Notes: generated from the sequence alone by a model not told the origin. Shown: positions 3 through 33,288, counted from the first letter of the stretch. The stretch is DNA of 33,797 nucleotides from a virus (IMGVR_UViG_3300046533_000547:1-33797); one strand, 5' to 3'. Numbers and translations: made by a program.

Positions 3-158
3 CGTTCACGGGCAACAGTTAGCCGCATCAGGCGCCGTAAGGTGCGGCCGGATTGGGAGACGATCCAGAATTTACGGGTCTTCACCAAGGGTGATGTGAC
101 TGCCGACGACTTCGAAATGATCGACGGTAGTCCAATGATATCCGTCAAGTCGCGGTAA
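3..158 (+). CDS. C-terminal fragment of an unidentified protein
   Basis: An open frame runs from the window edge to a TAA at 156-158, giving about 51 residues with no convincing start. A GTG at 42 is possible but has no clear ribosome site. The peptide is rich in Arg and Lys at its beginning and acidic in its second half (it contains DVTADDFEMIDG). It lies on the same strand as the following GcrA-like gene and probably heads the same operon. I do not recognise the family. Because the gene is cut by the window edge, its true length and function cannot be judged. Confidence 0.45.
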   Translation, partial: RSRATVSRIRRRKVRPDWETIQNLRVFTKGDVTADDFEMIDGSPMISVKSR

Positions 159-225: not shown

Positions 226-738
226 GTGGATGCCATCACCAAACGGCCGCGCCGTGCATGGAAAGGCCGTGCCGATCTCGACGACGTCATTCAAGCCAGC
301 TTGCGCCAAGGTCTTTCCTTCGCGCTGATTGCCAGAAAAGTTTCAGAGTTGCTCGGCTACCGGGTCAGCCGCGAGGCCACCATCGGCCGCGCCTATCGCA
401 TTGGTGCCCATGGTTCGGCAAAACCGTTAACGCACCTCAACAACCATCCGCCTAAGAAAAAACGTATCGAAACGAGCGCGGCTTTCGTTGAAAAACTTTG
501 CCGTGTTCGGCCAACGGCCACGCCACTGGTGGAGAGGCAGCTGCCTGCACCTGCTCCCTCAATCCCGGCAGGCACTGGTTTTCTTTCCATTGCCCTCATT
601 GATCTCGATGAAACGCACTGCCGTTATCCGCACGGCGACGGCCTCGCTATCCGATTTTGCGGACAGGCCAAGGTCGAAGGCTCGGCATATTGCGCCGCCC
701 ATACCAAGCTTTGTTACGTCAAAGGAAGGCAGCCGTGA
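226..738 (+). CDS. gcrA-like: GcrA-family cell-cycle regulator, phage-encoded
   Basis: This 170-residue protein resembles GcrA, the alphaproteobacterial sigma70-interacting regulator that responds to GANTC adenine methylation. Residues 13-62 look like the GcrA helix-turn-helix (QGLSFALIARKVSELLG, then TIGRAYRIG). The C-terminal 40 residues carry the family's Cys/His pattern: C132, FCG with C145, YC with C156, H159 and C163. A Pro/Lys-rich linker lies between. The frame is open from GTG 169, but GTG 226 is preferred because GGGGGA at 214-219 is well placed and the family similarity begins there. It overlaps the next start by one base (TGATG). By analogy it would bind host or phage promoters and redirect RNA polymerase; the DNA targets are unknown. 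Confidence 0.85.
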   Translation: MDAITKRPRRAWKGRADLDDVIQASLRQGLSFALIARKVSELLGYRVSREATIGRAYRIGAHGSAKPLTHLNNHPPKKKRIETSAAFVEKLCRVRPTATPLVERQLPAPAPSIPAGTGFLSIALIDLDETHCRYPHGDGLAIRFCGQAKVEGSAYCAAHTKLCYVKGRQP

Positions 739-1346
739 TGGATGAGCTGCCGCGCAATCATTTCGGCGCGATCCTGGCTGATCCACCGTGGCATTTCCAA
801 TCGTGGGCCGGTGGCCGGCTAAATGGAGATCCCCCAGGAAGAAGGGTCTTTACTTCTTCACGAGCGCCCGACTACCAAACTATGCGCGAGGAAGAATTAG
901 CGCTTTTGCGATTACAGGATTTAGCGGCGGGTGACTGCGTTCTTTTTCTATGGGTCTGCTGGCCGATATTGGAACAAGCATTGCGGCTCTTAAAGCAATG
1001 GGATTTCACATATAAAACCTGCGCTTTTGCTTGGGTAAAGGCCAATACAAAGCAGATAGACTTATTTCGCGAAGATGCCGATGCGTTTGCTGGACTCGGC
1101 TACTGGACGCGCGCCAACAGCGAGGTGTGTCTGCTAGCTACGCGCGGCAAACCAAAACGCCTTAACGCCGACGTCAGGCAAGGGATTATTGCCCCTCGAC
1201 GTGAGCACAGCCGCAAGCCGGACGGAATCCACGAACGGATAGAGCGGCTGGTCGCCGGTCCATACCTCGAACTATTCGCCCGTCAGGAACGCCAAGGCTG
1301 GACGACATGGGGCAATGAAACGCAAAAGTTCGGGAGTGTCGCATGA
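738..1346 (+). CDS. MT-A70 family N6-adenine methyltransferase
   Basis: The 202-residue product matches the MT-A70 family of SAM-dependent adenine N6-methyltransferases. The catalytic motif DPPW is at residues 15-18, preceded by FGAILA. A later segment (FLWVCWPILEQALRLLKQWDF, shortened here) has the family look, and the C-terminal part ends with VAGPYLELFARQ, typical of the family. ATG 738 is chosen because AAGGAAGG at 723-730 precedes it and it is coupled to the gcrA-like stop; the longer frame upstream overlaps that gene in another frame. It is one of two adenine methyltransferases in this operon. The recognition sequence is not visible. It could protect phage DNA from restriction or set methylation marks read by the GcrA-like protein. 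Confidence 0.88.
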   Translation: MDELPRNHFGAILADPPWHFQSWAGGRLNGDPPGRRVFTSSRAPDYQTMREEELALLRLQDLAAGDCVLFLWVCWPILEQALRLLKQWDFTYKTCAFAWVKANTKQIDLFREDADAFAGLGYWTRANSEVCLLATRGKPKRLNADVRQGIIAPRREHSRKPDGIHERIERLVAGPYLELFARQERQGWTTWGNETQKFGSVA

Positions 1347-1990
1347 TCGAGGCCGCCCAATTTACCACGCCGATCCAGCGCGAACTGTATGACCATTACC
1401 GTGAAATTCATCTGAAGTTCTTCCCCCTGCCGTCAGCACCGGCCGTGCGGCCATCACCACCGCCGCCGGTCATCGCCGCCCCGCTACCAGAGCCTTCTCC
1501 GCCGCCGCTACCGATGACACCAGTCCCGCTCTCGCAAACGCGGACCCGCATGCGGCTGATCGAGCGCGCCGTCTGCCGCTGTTACAAGGTCACCAAGATC
1601 GATCTGCGCGGACAGCGGCGCACGCCCGAATATGTGCGCCCGCGGCATGTGTTCTGCCTGATCTGCTCGCATTTGACGCTGGCCAGCCTGCCGATGATCG
1701 GCCGTTTCCTCAACGGTCGCGACCACACCACGATCCTGCACGCGATCCGCCGCATGGAGGAAAGAACACGCTGCGATGGCGATCTGGCCGAGCGGGTGCG
1801 CGCGCTGGAAACCAAACTCAAGAACGAATTCAGCGGTCAGGAACGGGGCACCTGCACTGCCCGCTATGTGCAGCATCACCGGGTCATGGACTACCTGCTG
1901 CTCGGCTGGATGCACGCCGCTAACCTCAACGAGTACGCCGCGCTCATGATCTGGCCGTGCAGCTGTCCGTTCGTGGAGCCGAAGCAGTGA
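1343..1990 (+). CDS. Stand-alone DnaA C-terminal (domain IV) DNA-binding protein
   Basis: The 215-residue protein has three parts: a short N-terminal region, a proline-rich linker at about residues 29-62, and a DnaA domain IV-like module at about 68-160. The DnaA-box recognition signature is visible as GRDHTTIL at 125-132, after helices containing RHVFCLIC. The AAA+ ATPase domain of DnaA is absent, so it could bind DnaA boxes but not form the ATP-dependent initiator filament. A C-terminal tail of about 55 residues with CSC is unlike host DnaA. It starts at an ATGA overlap with the methyltransferase gene. Likely roles are blocking or redirecting host DnaA, or phage origin recognition; the sequence does not decide between them. 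Confidence 0.85.
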   Translation: MIEAAQFTTPIQRELYDHYREIHLKFFPLPSAPAVRPSPPPPVIAAPLPEPSPPPLPMTPVPLSQTRTRMRLIERAVCRCYKVTKIDLRGQRRTPEYVRPRHVFCLICSHLTLASLPMIGRFLNGRDHTTILHAIRRMEERTRCDGDLAERVRALETKLKNEFSGQERGTCTARYVQHHRVMDYLLLGWMHAANLNEYAALMIWPCSCPFVEPKQ

Positions 1991-2895
1991 ACGATCTTGT
2001 TCAGAGCAAAGGCAAGCCGCCGGCAGAATTTCGGCCAGAACTTGCCAAGAAAAAACAGGCAGCCACCGATGCCGTTATCACTTATGCGAAAGCTATTCGT
2101 GATTGGGAAATGCTCGTCGAGGCAGTCGACCAGCAGATCGAAGATCAGCAGGCTTTTGTGCACTGGTGGAATGAGAATGTTTCAGTGCGGCAAAGTCCTG
2201 GAAACAAGTCAAACGCGGACCTGCGTTCGACTCTTTCAGTCGACAAGGCGCAGCAATTAACGGAGATCGCGCAGCAAACAGTTACCAAATGGCGTGAGCG
2301 ACTGAAAAACCTTCCGTCTTATCGCGAACTCTTGCGCAGCCCGTCCTATCGTAAAGCCATGGGCGAACGCGGCAGCTCAGATCAGAAAGGCGCGAGTGGC
2401 ACCGGAGAAAATGAATGGTTTACGCCAGAAAAATATCTGGCCTCGGCGCGTGCGGTGCTGGGCGAATTTGATCTTGATCCGGCATCCTCAGTCGAAGCGC
2501 AAGAGATCGTGCAGGCCAAGGAATTCTTCACTAAGAAAATCAATGGGCTTGAGCAGCAATGGCATGGCCGGGTGTGGCTCAACCCGCCTTATGCGCAGCC
2601 GTTGATAGGTGAATTTGTTTCAAAACTCTGCGCTGAGTTCGACACTGAACGTGTGAGTGAGGCCATCATGCTGACGCACAATTATACCGATACGTCTTGG
2701 TTTCACGAAGCGGCTTTAGTTTGCAGCGCGATATGCTTCACCCGGGGCCGCGTGCAGTTCTATAAGGCGAATGGCGAAGTCGCCGCACCGACACAGGGGC
2801 AAGCGTTCTTCTATTTCGGCGAGAACGTTGATCGTTTCGGCCAGATATTTTCAGCCTTGGGCTTTGTCATGGTGCCGTGGAGTAACGGACTATGA
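1987..2895 (+). CDS. dam-like: Phage Dam-type DNA N6-adenine methyltransferase
   Basis: The C-terminal half of this 302-residue protein matches the phage DNA N-6-adenine-methyltransferase family. It shows ENEWFTP, then FDLDPASS as the SAM-binding region, and the catalytic NPPY at 199-202. The N-terminal half (about 1-135) is charged and helical with WRERLKNLPSYRELL, a type of extension often found ahead of this domain and possibly involved in DNA or partner binding. GTG 1987 is chosen over the longer frame: GGAG at 1975-1978 is correctly spaced and the GTGA overlap with the previous stop repeats the coupling style of this operon. Its methylation target is unknown. It is the second adenine methyltransferase in 2 kb. 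Confidence 0.9.
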   Translation: MNDLVQSKGKPPAEFRPELAKKKQAATDAVITYAKAIRDWEMLVEAVDQQIEDQQAFVHWWNENVSVRQSPGNKSNADLRSTLSVDKAQQLTEIAQQTVTKWRERLKNLPSYRELLRSPSYRKAMGERGSSDQKGASGTGENEWFTPEKYLASARAVLGEFDLDPASSVEAQEIVQAKEFFTKKINGLEQQWHGRVWLNPPYAQPLIGEFVSKLCAEFDTERVSEAIMLTHNYTDTSWFHEAALVCSAICFTRGRVQFYKANGEVAAPTQGQAFFYFGENVDRFGQIFSALGFVMVPWSNGL

Positions 2896-3410
2896 CGGAT
2901 ATACGCGGCTCGATCTTCAACGAGGAGGCCTACAAGCTCAGCAAAATGCTTGATCATTCGTCTTGGCAGAAAGGTGATCAAGTATTGCCGCGACGGATTA
3001 CCCCTAGCGATATTGATATGGGCTTTCTGCCGCCCGATGGAGCTGGTTTTAATTTAGATAATAATGGCAACATTATTTTTGGCGAACTAACAAGAGGTTT
3101 TGCTAATTGGCTTAATGTTCGGTATGGCCAGCGGCGATTTTATGAAAGTTGCATTGGGCATTCCCAGCATTGTGCGGCACTTTGTCAGCACAATATTTCA
3201 ATTATGGACAATAGAAACATTGATACGCGTAGCGATATTGTAGCCTTTCAAATTATGATTTTTGATTTTGGAATCGTTGTAACCAAACCTTTTGTGGGCA
3301 ATGAAAACTGGCAGCGATTTGTTTTCCAATGGTTTCAAGATCCTGTTCAGTTGCGAAGATATTTACTCGGCAGAGCTGTTGGCATGATCAAGCCGACGTT
3401 AAAGGCCTAA
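2892..3410 (+). CDS. Unknown protein, possible nuclease-like fold
   Basis: I do not recognise this 172-residue protein with certainty. It starts at an ATGA overlap with the dam-like gene. Visible features are TPSDID near residue 39, a central strand ending GNIIFGELTRG, several aromatic and Cys/His residues (CIGHSQHCAALCQHN) and TRSDIVAFQ in the second half. The spacing of acidic residues before GELTR recalls PD-(D/E)XK nuclease cores, but the lysine is not clear, so this is only a guess. The base composition is clearly more AT-rich than the flanking genes, which suggests separate acquisition. Its position in the operon implies early expression and DNA metabolism. Confidence 0.7.
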   Translation: MTDIRGSIFNEEAYKLSKMLDHSSWQKGDQVLPRRITPSDIDMGFLPPDGAGFNLDNNGNIIFGELTRGFANWLNVRYGQRRFYESCIGHSQHCAALCQHNISIMDNRNIDTRSDIVAFQIMIFDFGIVVTKPFVGNENWQRFVFQWFQDPVQLRRYLLGRAVGMIKPTLKA

Positions 3411-3896: not shown

Positions 3897-4139
3897 ATGT
3901 TGCTACTATCGTTCCCGTTGTCGGGCTTAATCCTGGGCATCATCAATATCGCCATCGTGGTGGCGGTCCTGCTGCTGATCGGCGCCATCATCGTGTGGTT
4001 CTGCGGCTGGATGAGCCTAGCGATCCCCGCGCAGGTGCAGAAAATCTACATGATCGTGGTGGCCCTGATCGCCCTCTACATGCTGGTGGGCTTGATCTTC
4101 GGCTTGCCGGTTCCGGCGATGACTGGCTTGCATGGTTGA
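3897..4139 (+). CDS. Small two-helix membrane protein
   Basis: The 80-residue protein is almost wholly hydrophobic, with membrane segments at about 8-40 and 49-69 separated by a short polar turn (IPAQVQK). GGGAGG at 3886-3891 lies 5 nt before the ATG. The composition would suit a holin or an inner-membrane accessory protein, but the gene is 24 kb from the endolysin. Small two-helix proteins with a similar IP...K turn are widespread in bacteria without a known role. It overlaps the NusG-like start by one base. I cannot assign a function; a holin is possible. Confidence 0.7.
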   Translation: MLLLSFPLSGLILGIINIAIVVAVLLLIGAIIVWFCGWMSLAIPAQVQKIYMIVVALIALYMLVGLIFGLPVPAMTGLHG

Positions 4140-6301: not shown

Positions 6302-6568
6302 TTAGAGCCGTATTTTCCACCGGCCATCACGGATGGCTGGATCTTTGTTTGCCCTGAAATGCGGGACCATGACGTCGCGGGTGTATTTGGCTAAAGCGGG
6401 GTTCTGGATCATTGCCAGCAGGTAAAACACCGGCCCCGGAATCTCGCGCTCGCCGGATTCCCATCTTCGCACGGTGCGGCCTGACTTGACGCCGACCAGA
6501 CACGCGAAACCCTCGGCGGAGAGGCCGAGGGCGTGGCGGGCTTTCTTGAGTTGTGTGGGGGTCATCAT
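6302..6568 (-). CDS. XRE-type helix-turn-helix regulator
   Basis: The 88-residue protein has a Cro/C1-like helix-turn-helix: LKKARHALGLSAEGFACLVG at about 7-26, then VRRWESGEREIPGP at 33-46, the usual recognition-helix and WESG signature. The C-terminal 35 residues are short, so there is no large oligomerisation or peptidase domain. It is transcribed against the packaging genes. Its promoter at 6575-6603 places the likely transcription start at or next to the ATG, predicting a leaderless mRNA. This is the only repressor-like gene seen in the window. It may control terL on the other strand, because its promoter adjoins the terL start. Confidence 0.85.
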   Translation of the reverse strand: MMTPTQLKKARHALGLSAEGFACLVGVKSGRTVRRWESGEREIPGPVFYLLAMIQNPALAKYTRDVMVPHFRANKDPAIRDGRWKIRL

Positions 6569-6605: not shown

Positions 6606-8303
6606 TTGCACCTAATCGTCAATAACGAGCGGAACCCGTGGAGTACGGCCGTTCCCGATTGGGCCGAGCGGATCATGGCGGGCAGGAGTCTTGTTCCCAG
6701 CCTGCCTTTGTTTCCCGATGAAGTGAAGCACGGCCTATCCGCATTCAAGCGGCTGCGTCTGCCCGATGTCATTGGCCAACCGACATTCGGCGAGGCCATG
6801 GGAGATTGGGTGTTTGAGATCGCCGCTGCGCTGTTCGGGTCTTACGATGTTGAAAAGCACACGCGGGCCATCCAGGAATATTTTCTCTTAGTCCCGAAGA
6901 AGAATGGCAAGTCGACGCTGGCTGCCGGTTTGATGGTGGCGGCGGTCTGCCGCAACAGACGGCCGGATGCCGAATTCACCTTCCTGGCGCCGACCATCGA
7001 GGTGGCGGGGATCGCCTTCCGGCAGGCGCGGTCCATGGTCAAGCTCGACCCGACGCTGAGCACCGTGTTTCATATCCAGGACAACATCAGAAGAATTACC
7101 CACCGCAAGCACGGCTCGTTCCTGCAGATCAAGGCGGCCGATGTGGATGTGATCACCGGCGGTAAGCCGCTGGGGTGCCTGGTGGATGAGACGCACGTCT
7201 TCGCCACCAAGTCGCATGCCGCGGATATCTTTCTCGAAATTAGGGGCGCCCTGGCGAGCAGACCGGATGGATTCTTGATCCAGATCACGACGCAGTCAAA
7301 AGCGCCGCCCGCCGGGGTATTCAAGTCGGAGTTGGCGCGAGCCAGAGACGTGCGCGACGGCAAACTGACGTTGCCGAAGCCACTGTTGCCCGTCCTATAC
7401 GAATTGCCGCACAAGATCGCGGCGAATAGCGGATGGGAAAACGAACAAACGTGGTCCTTGGTCAACCCGAATTTGGGGCGGTCGGTCGATGCGGAATTCC
7501 TGCGCTCGCAGCTCATCGACGCCAAGCGCAAGGGACAGGGCGACCTGGCGCTATTTGCATCGCAACATTTCAATGTCGAGATAGGCCTGTCGCTGCGAGG
7601 CGACCGATGGGCCGGTACGGAATTCTGGGAAAAACAGACGGACGAAACTCTGACGCTCGAGCGGTTGCTCGAGCGTTCGGAAATCGTCGTGGTGGGGATC
7701 GACGGCGGCGGGCTGGATGACTTGTTTGGGCTTTGTACTCTCGGACGTTGCCGCGAGACCAAACATTGGCTGGCTTGGTCGCATGCTTGGTGTCACGAGA
7801 GCGTCCTGCAGCGAAGGCAAACCATCGCGGCAACGCTGCAGGATTTCCAGAATAACGGGGAATTGACAATTGTCCAAGACGAACTGGATGACATCACCGC
7901 CATCGTTGAGATCATTTCCGACATCAAGCGAAGAAATCTTCTGGCGGCTGTCGCTGTTGACCCTGCTGGCCTCGGTGAAGTCGTGGACGCGCTCGGACGA
8001 ATCGGAGTCTCCGTCGCCGACAAAAACCTGATCGGCGCACCGCAAGGCTATCAGATGATGAATGCCATCAAGGGCAGCGAACGCAAGCTTGCCAACGGCA
8101 CGCTCTGGCATAGCGGTTCAAGCCTGATGTCCTGGTGCGTGAGCAACGTCAAGATAGAGCCGACCGCTACGGCAATACGAGCCACCAAGCAGAATGCCGG
8201 CGATGCCAAGATCGACTGCGCCATGGCGATGTTCGACGCCGCGCTGGTGATGCAGAACAAGCCGGACGAGGCGCCGGCCTTCCAGATGTTCTTTGTCGGC
8301 TGA
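6606..8303 (+). CDS. terL: Terminase large subunit, HK97-type
   Basis: This 565-residue motor protein packages DNA into proheads. The ATPase half shows a Walker A variant, VPKKNGKST (residues 97-104), and a Walker B, CLVDE with D194 and E195. The nuclease half shows the first acidic residue in VVVGIDGGG (D366, with DD at 371-372) and the last acidic in AKIDCAMAMFD near residue 535. Length is normal for the family. The start is TTG 6606: an in-frame TAG lies four codons upstream, and family similarity (PWSTAVPDWAERI) begins well before the first ATG at 6675. No strong ribosome site precedes the TTG, so translation may be weak or coupled in an unusual way. Confidence 0.93.
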   Translation: MHLIVNNERNPWSTAVPDWAERIMAGRSLVPSLPLFPDEVKHGLSAFKRLRLPDVIGQPTFGEAMGDWVFEIAAALFGSYDVEKHTRAIQEYFLLVPKKNGKSTLAAGLMVAAVCRNRRPDAEFTFLAPTIEVAGIAFRQARSMVKLDPTLSTVFHIQDNIRRITHRKHGSFLQIKAADVDVITGGKPLGCLVDETHVFATKSHAADIFLEIRGALASRPDGFLIQITTQSKAPPAGVFKSELARARDVRDGKLTLPKPLLPVLYELPHKIAANSGWENEQTWSLVNPNLGRSVDAEFLRSQLIDAKRKGQGDLALFASQHFNVEIGLSLRGDRWAGTEFWEKQTDETLTLERLLERSEIVVVGIDGGGLDDLFGLCTLGRCRETKHWLAWSHAWCHESVLQRRQTIAATLQDFQNNGELTIVQDELDDITAIVEIISDIKRRNLLAAVAVDPAGLGEVVDALGRIGVSVADKNLIGAPQGYQMMNAIKGSERKLANGTLWHSGSSLMSWCVSNVKIEPTATAIRATKQNAGDAKIDCAMAMFDAALVMQNKPDEAPAFQMFFVG

Positions 8304-29445: not shown

Positions 29446-29644
29446 CGTTTGTGCTTTGGAAGTGTCTAACCCTGAGAACAATTGAGCAATTCTGAGTGTC
29501 TACCCCTTTGATAACTCTATTAATCCGCACAATGGGGGTATATGGGAATATTAAAACAAATCAAATGCATGCAGTGTCTAACCTTTAAAAACCTGTCCAT
29601 GGAAATACTAGGGAATTTTAGTTTAGCGTCTAACCTTCAACCCT
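29446..29644. other. Non-coding region between convergent operons
   Basis: About 200 bases separate the end of the late operon from the end of the minus-strand operon. The DNA is AT-rich. The main content is four copies of an 11-bp motif. I see no rho-independent terminator with a strong stem and T-run for either side, although both operons should stop here. An attachment site is plausible because the integrase operon ends at this point, but I cannot identify a core. Confidence 0.5.
29461..29641 (+). repeat. Four direct copies of AGTGTCTAACC-type motif
   Basis: Copies start at 29461 (AGTGTCTAACC), 29495 (AGTGTCTACCC), 29573 (AGTGTCTAACC) and 29625 (AGCGTCTAACC), all in the same orientation. 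Two are identical and two differ by a single base over 11 bp. Most continue with a C/T-rich then A-rich tail (for example CTTTAAA after copy three). Start-to-start distances are 34, 78 and 52 bases. They could be integrase arm sites or regulator-binding sites. Confidence 0.75.
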
Positions 29645-29815: not shown

Positions 29816-30159
29816 GGCTCATCCTTCAATGCACGGATGGCAGCGGCGATAGCTTGCGCTGATGGATCAATGGTTTCCGCCACCTGTGCGCAGCGCTCGA
29901 TGGTGACGGACTTTAGATTTTCGATGGTTGGCCTTTGGGCCTCCATCCCGGCATCATAACCGCGTTGCCATTCACCCACCCCCGCAGCGGCGGTGAGGGC
30001 GGCTAATATCTCTTTAGCTATTTCGGGGTTTTCGCAGGTGCAGACATGCCCATTGGCATCGGCAATGTCGCATTCTCGATAAATCTCAAAGGGCGGCTTA
30101 ATGCTAACATTGGCTCTGTTAGTATGCGGGTTAATGTTATCACCCACCCTCCGTGTCAT
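29812..30159 (-). CDS. Unknown protein coupled to integrase
   Basis: The 115-residue product starts at ATG 30159 in an ATGA overlap with the integrase stop. It contains FEIYRECDIADANGHVCTCENPEIAKEILAAL (abridged; residues about 23-54), a pattern in phage hypothetical proteins that handle a small ligand-like fold, and ends with a helix (ERCAQVAETIDPSAQAIAAA). The later ATG-to-stop region looks like a normal small helical protein. The frame can start 33 bases earlier, inside the integrase gene, but this is less likely. No function can be given. Confidence 0.65.
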   Translation of the reverse strand: MTRRVGDNINPHTNRANVSIKPPFEIYRECDIADANGHVCTCENPEIAKEILAALTAAAGVGEWQRGYDAGMEAQRPTIENLKSVTIERCAQVAETIDPSAQAIAAAIRALKDEP

Positions 30160-31202
30160 TTGGCCTTCCTCGCGGCATCCGCCGCTTCCCATCGCAACAT
30201 CGCATTCTTCGCCAACTGCTTCCTTGCCGCGCGCTTCGTGTAATGCAGCGCCATCTTCGCCGAGCGGTGACCGGTGACGGCCATGATCTCGTCAATTGAG
30301 CATCCGGCCTCGGCCAGTGCCTGCGCGGCATTCTTGCGCAAGCCGTGGAATGAATAGCCCTTGATGCCGAGCCGCTGCAGCTGTTGCCGCACTAGGCGGG
30401 ACAGGCTGGCCGGATCGTAAGGATTGCCGCGCTCACCGAGCAGGATGAATTCACCCTTGCGCGGCATGGAAGCCAGCACAAGCCGCATCGCTTTGTGGCA
30501 GGGTATCACCACGAATTCTTTGGTTTTCTGTTGCACCACCTCGATGGTTTCGCCGTCGAATTGTGACCATTTCATCTTGACCACATCGGAGCGGCGTTGC
30601 CCGGTATAGCGGCCCAGCATCACAGCCAGCCGTAAGTGAGCCGGGGCCGCGGCGTCGAAAGCAGCGAACAGTTCCTCACTCCACGGCTGCCTTTCATTTT
30701 CCTCCCTGTGGCCATGCAGCCTGCTCACCCCAACGGTCGGATTTGCCTCGAGCTCAAGATCAAGGTGCTGATCGGCAAACTGCCATAGCACTGACAGGCG
30801 GCCGAGCGCGCTGTCGGCCACCGAGGCCGAAAAGCAGCGATGAAAGTGATCGCGCATCGCCTTCACATGCCGTGGCCGCAGATCGCGCAGCATGCCGCCG
30901 CCGAATGTTCGCTTGAGTTCGTCAAATATTCTGCGGTCTGATCGCCAGGTATTGGGCGCGCGCTCGTTGAATGCCTTGGTGGCGACGAATTGATCGATAC
31001 CCCAGCCCAGCGTGCCGCGCAGAAAGCCGATCTTGCTGGCATCGATCTTGAATTTCTGTGTGCAGCTTGCCGCTTCATAGGCCGCCATGAAGCCGGGCGC
31101 ATGCGGTGGCGGCAGTTGGACGCTTGGATATCCCTTGCGGCGGAAATAATAGCGTGCCCTGCCGTGGCGATCTTTGTATGCCTTGATGAAAGGCAGCTTC
31201 AT
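30156..31202 (-). CDS. int: Tyrosine recombinase (phage integrase)
   Basis: The 348-residue protein has the catalytic set of tyrosine recombinases: R203 in YTGQRRSD, K226 in QQKTKE, H286 and R289 in HGLRK, H312 in TGHRS and the nucleophile Y321 in HYTK. An N-terminal arm-binding-like part (RARYYFRRKGYPSVQLPP) and a core-binding helical domain (about 65-160) precede it. It would integrate and excise the phage at an attachment site. It lies in the minus-strand operon with an excisionase-like gene overlapping its start by four bases and a coupled small gene at its end. Confidence 0.95.
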   Translation of the reverse strand: MKLPFIKAYKDRHGRARYYFRRKGYPSVQLPPPHAPGFMAAYEAASCTQKFKIDASKIGFLRGTLGWGIDQFVATKAFNERAPNTWRSDRRIFDELKRTFGGGMLRDLRPRHVKAMRDHFHRCFSASVADSALGRLSVLWQFADQHLDLELEANPTVGVSRLHGHREENERQPWSEELFAAFDAAAPAHLRLAVMLGRYTGQRRSDVVKMKWSQFDGETIEVVQQKTKEFVVIPCHKAMRLVLASMPRKGEFILLGERGNPYDPASLSRLVRQQLQRLGIKGYSFHGLRKNAAQALAEAGCSIDEIMAVTGHRSAKMALHYTKRAARKQLAKNAMLRWEAADAARKAK

Positions 31203-32401: not shown

Positions 32402-33208
32402 TTATGCTTTTTGATTTTCCAGTTCGTCACTGATCTCGGCACCCGGCTGTGCTTTTTCCTCGTCACCCCCGAAGGCATCGAGCGCCTCGATCATGTTGGC
32501 GATCGGCTTGACGTCGGAGGCTGGATTATTTGGCTTGTTGAATTCATATAAATCGTCGTCGGCCCGGATCAGATCATCGAGGTCGGATGACATCGGCAGG
32601 CGCTTGGCCAGATTTCGCAGTACGGTTTTTTGCCAGGCCTCCTCGGTCCATTCGGTCCATAGCGGGGAATTTTTTGCGCGCGAGACATTGCGGCGTTTAT
32701 TGATTTCGCTCTCCGACATGACTTCAACCATGATGCCGCCGTCGCGAGTGTTGGCAATTGCATATGCCCGCACTGGCTTGCCGGTGCCATCACCCGGTAC
32801 ATGATTCAGATGCGGTCCATGCTCGTCTTTGTAGTAGTGGAACACGTCATTATCTCGCACGATATCGACATCGATTGATTTAAATTGTCCGGAATTTCTA
32901 AATCTTTTTAATAGACCGCCGACCATCGGCAACCACTGCGCCTTGTCCTTGAATGGGACGATGGCGCCCTCGCGGCCGTCGGGCAAAAGTCCATCACTTG
33001 CTGCACGCAGACAGGCGCTCCACAAGCTTTGTCTATCGCACGCCAAAAGATCGGGATTTATTTGGCAGCAAGTTAAAACCACGCGGATGAATCGCTCGGG
33101 CGGAATGTGGACCGGCAAGGCATTCTTTAGTTCACCGGCGCGGGCGTCGAAGTGTTCGCGCAGGGTGACTAGCGGGTGCTTTGATTTTTCGGCTTTGGCG
33201 GTGGTCAT
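32402..33208 (-). CDS. recT: RecT-family single-strand annealing protein
   Basis: The 268-residue protein fits RecT: an N-terminal PERFIRVVLTCCQINPDLLA, then the signature SLWSACLRAASDGLLPDGREGAIVPF (abridged, near 66-91) and the WLPMVGGLLKRFRNSG segment. VMSESEINKRRNVSRAKNSP and a conserved W-x-EW-x-EEAWQKTVLRNLAKRLP follow. It anneals complementary single strands in phage recombination. ATG 33208 is preferred over 33235 because GGAG lies seven bases upstream. A RecE-like exonuclease, the usual partner, is not seen in the window; it may be outside. Confidence 0.92.
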   Translation of the reverse strand: MTTAKAEKSKHPLVTLREHFDARAGELKNALPVHIPPERFIRVVLTCCQINPDLLACDRQSLWSACLRAASDGLLPDGREGAIVPFKDKAQWLPMVGGLLKRFRNSGQFKSIDVDIVRDNDVFHYYKDEHGPHLNHVPGDGTGKPVRAYAIANTRDGGIMVEVMSESEINKRRNVSRAKNSPLWTEWTEEAWQKTVLRNLAKRLPMSSDLDDLIRADDDLYEFNKPNNPASDVKPIANMIEALDAFGGDEEKAQPGAEISDELENQKA

Positions 33209-33288
33209 ATTTTGCTCCAGAGATTTATGCTGCATTCCGTTTGATAGAGCCGCGGCTTTTTCAATTTCACTACATTCGTTTTCATCAT

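Follow-up and report, generated by a model that had tools for sequence, protein, structure and literature searches.

Caulobacter GcrA contacts sigma70 and acts at methylated promoters (PMC7403470). Phage-borne homologues have been reported as gp222 of phiCbK (PMC3556154), as a GcrA-like gene in brucellaphage Y17 (PMC11836647), in a coral phage (PMC11309003) and as GcrA-like genes in phiLM21-like prophages (PMC12429752). In the accessible portions of the phiCbK, Y17 and phiLM21-like reports these are single genes, with no coupled methylases and no pairing with a gene for DnaA domain IV, hereafter dnaA(IV), described. Alphaproteobacterial phages are also known to carry GANTC-specific methylases beside their replication genes (PMC5537653). 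Single GcrA homologues and GANTC methylases of phages are therefore already on record; what appears to be new here is a recurrent gcrA-dnaA(IV) pair, of which we found no description in the open-licence literature on GcrA with DnaA, MT-A70 or GapR.

Sinorhizobium phage phiLM21 (KJ743987) has a gene order like that of the locus analysed here: repressor, Cro, methylase, DUF1376, DnaA(IV), NusG, HNH and terminase. In this isolated phage the genes for DnaB, DUF1376, DnaA(IV) and NusG are consecutive and follow a proven GANTC methylase. Unlike our locus, phiLM21 has a non-homologous methylase and its own DnaB, and no GcrA was found in it. Plasmid pUSDA31-2 of Bradyrhizobium elkanii (NZ_CP126028) resembles our locus in that dnaA(IV) overlaps a GcrA-family gene, with a PF01555 methylase downstream of the two; however, the order is reversed, and the plasmid GcrA has helix-turn-helix domains (HTHs) and lacks the sigma70-interacting domain (SID). 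In the early right operon of lambda, cro-cII-O-P, cro is followed by an activator and then by the replication initiator. The operon described below occupies the same position, although its proteins are unrelated to those of lambda.

The window, by which we mean the whole 33.8-kb stretch of IMG/VR DNA that was analysed, carries genes of a temperate tailed phage, including integrase, RecT, terminase, portal, tape measure and endolysin. Its host is likely an alphaproteobacterium, since the nearest terminases among named phages are those of Roseibium and Agrobacterium phages. The following features were identified:

3-158, plus strand: small gene of which the 3' part is present, probably a cro-like HTH regulator (phrog_18104 'transcriptional regulator' matched weakly, E 0.004)
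226-738, plus strand: gcrA-like gene, 170 aa, with N-terminal HTH, linker and C-terminal SID (PF07750, 7.5e-17)
738-1346, plus strand: MT-A70 family adenine methyltransferase, 202 aa, with DPPW motif (PF05063, 2.5e-27; phrog_359, 1.5e-67)
1343-1990, plus strand: 215-aa protein that consists of DnaA domain IV after a Pro-rich N-terminal part (PF08299, 3.4e-21)
1987-2895, plus strand: phage Dam-type N6-adenine methyltransferase, 302 aa, with NPPY motif (PF05869, 5.2e-18; phrog_111, 2.3e-36)
2892-3410, plus strand: orf5, 172 aa
3416-3865, plus strand: DUF1376/primosomal (replisome organiser) protein (PF07120, 2.4e-11; phrog_9327 primosomal, 1.2e-13)
3897-4139, plus strand: small membrane protein, a hydrophobic open reading frame read from the sequence and also kept in relative L003
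4139-4645, plus strand: NusG-like transcription antiterminator (PF02357, 1.2e-15; phrog_6386, 8.5e-17)
6606-8303: terminase
30156-31202, minus strand: integrase
32402-33235, minus strand: RecT

The sequence-only reading had assigned the genes between 226 and 2895 to four families in a translationally coupled run. All four assignments (PF07750, PF05063, PF08299 and PF05869) score above the Pfam cut-offs, and the stop-to-start overlaps of gcrA, MT-A70, dnaA(IV) and dam are present in the sequence. Each of these genes overlaps its next gene by one or four bases: gcrA and MT-A70 at TGATG (TGA at 736-738, ATG at 738), MT-A70 and dnaA at ATGA (1343-1346), dnaA and dam at GTGA (1987-1990), and dam and orf5 at ATGA (2892-2895). 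Two details needed revision. The start of dam, placed before at 1957, is most likely the GTG at 1987, which gives the protein of 302 aa, and the run extends past 2895 through orf5, DUF1376, the membrane protein and the NusG-like gene. It also begins upstream of the window, as the first base falls inside the small gene at 3-158. On the best reading, the four genes open the early rightward operon of a temperate phage of alphaproteobacteria and hold the position that cro-cII-O has in lambda. Searches of Pfam, PHROG, NCBIfam and the viral contigs returned no relatives of orf5. Elsewhere in the window, the small and large terminase genes flank a lone HTH regulator gene that runs against them (6302-6568, minus strand). 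Four copies of GTGTCTAACC, each with at most one mismatch, stand within 175 non-coding bases (29462-29635) in the gap that separates the endolysin from the leftward genes; the window holds no other copy, and 0.6 would be expected over its whole length.

The GcrA-like protein matches PF07750 with 62.6 bits (cut-off 26.9), and its best match in both sequence and predicted fold is C. crescentus GcrA (PDB 7ye1/7ye2). The two share an HTH, a C-terminal SID and the same Cys/His pattern, with C132, C145, C156 and H159 kept in the phage protein, and the predicted SID fold matches the GcrA SID of 7ye2 (TM to target 0.71). However, similarity to the Caulobacter protein is about 26%, a below-family level, and the HTH loop is longer. 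The NCBIfam equivalog for host cell-cycle GcrA (NF050816) was not reached (40.3 bits against 280). Judged by sequence, the window protein is a homologue and not the host regulator. Its recognition helix reads SREATIG(R) where the family-typical form is RNAVIGK-like, so that Glu replaces Asn. In an unbiased set of 42 GcrA domains, which leaves out loci that had been selected by that same motif, 24 carry the Asn, and Glu was seen only in the lineage of the window. No relatives of the window gcrA were present in the GTDB genomes searched.

The DnaA(IV) protein matches PF08299 (Bac_DnaA_C) with 75.5 bits (cut-off 31.5). Its predicted model superposes on the structure of DnaA domain IV bound to a DnaA box, 1j1v, with a TM of 0.95 and an rmsd of 0.7. 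Six residues that align with DnaA-IV of 1j1v (R93, R101, P117, D127, H128 and T129) are invariant across 15 phage DnaA(IV) proteins; based on the 1j1v structure and on sequence alignment, we take them to be the equivalents of the E. coli DnaA-box contacts R399, R407, P423, D433, H434 and T435. An AAA+ domain is absent from the 215-aa protein, as the DnaA initiator profile TIGR00362 matched at positions 343-437 only, with 82 bits against the required 343.9. Counts of DnaA boxes and G-boxes in the window were at chance level and no clusters were seen. Neither did a meta-profile of 88 loci give a convincing peak of DnaA boxes, iterons or cumulative GC skew around dnaA(IV). A cluster of eight GATC sites within dnaA(IV) (1558-1784) was considered as an oriC-like region and rejected: the gene holds 11 sites against 5.6 with codon use kept (P 0.007), and the genome-wide P is 0.23.

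Relatives were found by scanning with each window protein and afterwards by broader scans of viral contigs, which returned DnaA(IV) relatives in 506 contigs and GcrA relatives in 117; 80 loci of each were read (loci are given by L numbers). In L002, whose proteins are 82-95% identical to those of the window, gcrA overlaps dnaA(IV) directly and MT-A70 is absent. L003 lacks MT-A70 as well. A PF01555 methylase and an HNH-like gene stand there instead of dam and orf5, but L003 retains dnaA(IV), DUF1376, the membrane protein and NusG. From these swaps it follows that gcrA and dnaA(IV) are constant and the methylases variable. In both of these close relatives, L002 (5228-5455; phrog_8008, 2e-10; Pfam P22_Cro, 1.5e-5) and L003 (2594-2827; weak match), a cro-like HTH gene lies directly before gcrA; further upstream of gcrA, L003 has a divergently oriented Cro/C1-type repressor gene. 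In the Bradyrhizobium loci L241 and L242, dnaA(IV) is preceded by a cro-like gene and followed by a replication-type gene. In L003 the HNH-like gene that occupies the place of orf5 comes after the different methylase.

Home-made profiles seeded with the window genes detected 39 gcrA-dnaA(IV) pairs among the viral contig loci, all 39 with both genes on the same strand, 23 in one order and 16 in the other. Grouped at 60% identity, their GcrA proteins form 29 clusters. At E 0.01, Pfam recognised 27 of 28 representatives as GcrA; because some of these fall under the curated cut-off, we count at least 25 paired clusters. In runs that hold both genes, drawn from a simple gene caller of our own and compared with shuffled positions, gcrA and dnaA(IV) adjoined each other in 13 of 22, where 5.3 such adjacencies would be expected (P ~3e-4). 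Put through the same test, control pairs had no such excess, whether GapR, DUF1376 or the N6/N4-methylase (PF01555) was paired with DnaA or with GcrA, or NusG was used. The sequence-only reading had named a lack of conservation beyond this phage as a refutation. Conservation is seen, but not of the four-gene order: only gcrA and dnaA(IV) are kept together, in either order. MT-A70 adjoined gcrA in four of six runs (1.4 expected, P 0.02) and dnaA(IV) likewise in four of six (1.8 expected, P 0.06). Among 32 MT-A70-anchored loci, GcrA and DnaA(IV) were each present in six, and their joint presence was hardly above chance. Mere co-occurrence of GcrA and DnaA(IV) is weaker evidence than direct adjacency, and against a joint module, 71 of the 80 GcrA loci are without DnaA(IV) and 59 of the 80 DnaA(IV) loci without GcrA.

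We lean modestly towards the view that the locus is an early transcription and replication module, composed of a sigma70 cofactor and a DnaA-box binder and accompanied by exchangeable methylases. What the sequences show directly is which genes are present, how they overlap, which domains and residues they keep and that the neighbourhood recurs; the activities that follow are inferred. By way of sigma70 region 2, the GcrA-like protein would probably bind the RNA polymerase of the host and raise the output of chosen promoters, those of phage early and middle genes and perhaps of host replication genes. DnaA(IV) would probably bind DnaA-box-like sites and, with the downstream DUF1376 organiser, mark a site on the phage genome for helicase loading. 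Given that gcrA and dnaA(IV) stay together, their products probably share sites or a complex, and together they could achieve a transcription-coupled activation of phage replication. Since no DnaA-box, iteron or GC-skew signal was located, the replication role is drawn from the neighbourhood and not from cis sites.

A more specific form of this view is possible, and we hold it only tentatively: the GcrA SID and DnaA(IV) would constitute one two-protein activator, in which the choice of site falls to DnaA(IV), aided or not by the GcrA HTH, and RNA polymerase is recruited by the SID. Pfam-confirmed genes of 59-80 codons that encode a bare SID without HTH occur in L058 (6249-6482), L069 (620-862), L223 (4992-5186) and L228 (4986-5165). 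In two cases, L058/L213 and L069/L216, the bare SID overlaps dnaA(IV); if the activator is real, L058 and L069 would carry its minimal version, with the DnaA box serving phage transcription and replication as an upstream activator site. In L063 and L085, a SID-only GcrA is found near a DnaA with AAA+ domain. SID-only genes were rejected as proof of a shared complex, as the bare SID of L228 overlaps MT-A70 with no DnaA(IV) at the locus; that of L223 is without MT-A70, dnaA(IV) or AAA+ DnaA. The converse form, a GcrA with HTH and no SID, is present in L038, L107 and L074. Phage DnaA proteins with both AAA+ Walker motifs and domain IV are encoded next to or near GcrA genes in L052 (5086-6309), L063 (4828-6279) and L085 (5008-6291). 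The phage gene pool includes a third DNA-binding protein of the Caulobacter cell cycle, GapR (PF10073), whose homologues recur in the same early operons, in 34 of the 80 DnaA(IV) loci and 27 of the 80 GcrA loci (for example L058 7518-7766 and L076 2181-2450); the window itself has none.

The two genes might instead be passive neighbours, drawn from a common early-gene pool and adjacent without acting together. Such a pool does account for part of the co-occurrence of gcrA and dnaA(IV), since GapR, DUF1376 and the methylases are found in that region too, and the frequent occurrence of each gene without the other, as well as the two gene orders, would fit. We nevertheless consider this account doubtful, because gcrA-dnaA(IV) adjacency exceeds expectation whereas pairs with GapR, DUF1376, the N6/N4-methylase or NusG, members of the same runs, do not.

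The methylases bear on another explanation, the writer-reader loop that had been suggested from the sequence, in which a phage methylase would write m6A, at GANTC or a different motif, and phage transcription would be timed by the GcrA-like protein reading that mark. This would accord with the action of Caulobacter GcrA at methylated promoters (PMC7403470), with the GANTC methylases beside replication genes in alphaproteobacterial phages (PMC5537653) and with the tendency of MT-A70 to adjoin gcrA. MT-A70 is a clear family member (PF05063, 96.3 bits, cut-off 23.9; DPPW read in the sequence). The Dam-type enzyme exceeds the PF05869 cut-off (65.7 bits, cut-off 28.1) but scores below the TIGR01712 equivalog (54.6 bits, cut-off 97). 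However, BLASTP and HMM comparison of the Dam-type enzyme with the proven GANTC enzyme PhiLM21_p027 gave no match, and on this absent homology we set aside its assignment as a GANTC enzyme. GANTC is moreover depleted in the window, with 56 sites against 144 after shuffling and 51 against 77 with codon use kept, and the 1,735 non-coding bases hold none, a weak point as only about three would be expected. The recognition-helix Asn is Glu in this lineage, and MT-A70 is missing at this place in the near relatives. The GcrA/GANTC loop is thus not supported so far, and we judge a writer-reader loop of any motif to be unlikely. In the window genes GANTC, TTAA and CCWGG are all under-represented. GATC is in excess, both over the whole window (250 sites against 184 after shuffling) and in genes when codon use is kept (199 against 167).

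Phage MT-A70 enzymes may have rRNA rather than DNA as their target, as one from a prophage methylates 16S rRNA (PMC10810198). We regard the methylases as exchangeable accessories, most likely for self-methylation against restriction, the simplest role for them, and possibly for regulatory marks.

The sequence-only reading had also suggested a hold on the host cell cycle. In this account the GcrA-like protein would push the host into S phase while DnaA(IV) acted at oriC as a competitor of the host DnaA, which would free replication machinery for the phage; a host cell-cycle role of phage GcrA is also put forward for phiCbK (PMC3556154). Although the families are those of the host circuit, the DnaA-box contact residues are kept and GapR homologues occur in the same operons of related phages, we find this very unlikely, as the dnaA(IV) genes of phiLM21 and the Bradyrhizobium loci adjoin phage replication genes, a placement that phage replication fits at least equally, and the window GcrA is far under the host equivalog score (40 against 280 bits).

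Under the favoured reading, an early transcription and replication module, host cell-cycle parts (GcrA, DnaA-box binding, GapR and adenine methylation) would be reused by phages as interchangeable modules. The bare-SID genes make the sigma70-recruiting mechanism directly testable, and the gcrA-dnaA(IV) pair is a testable candidate for the means by which temperate alphaproteobacterial phages may tie early transcription to replication.
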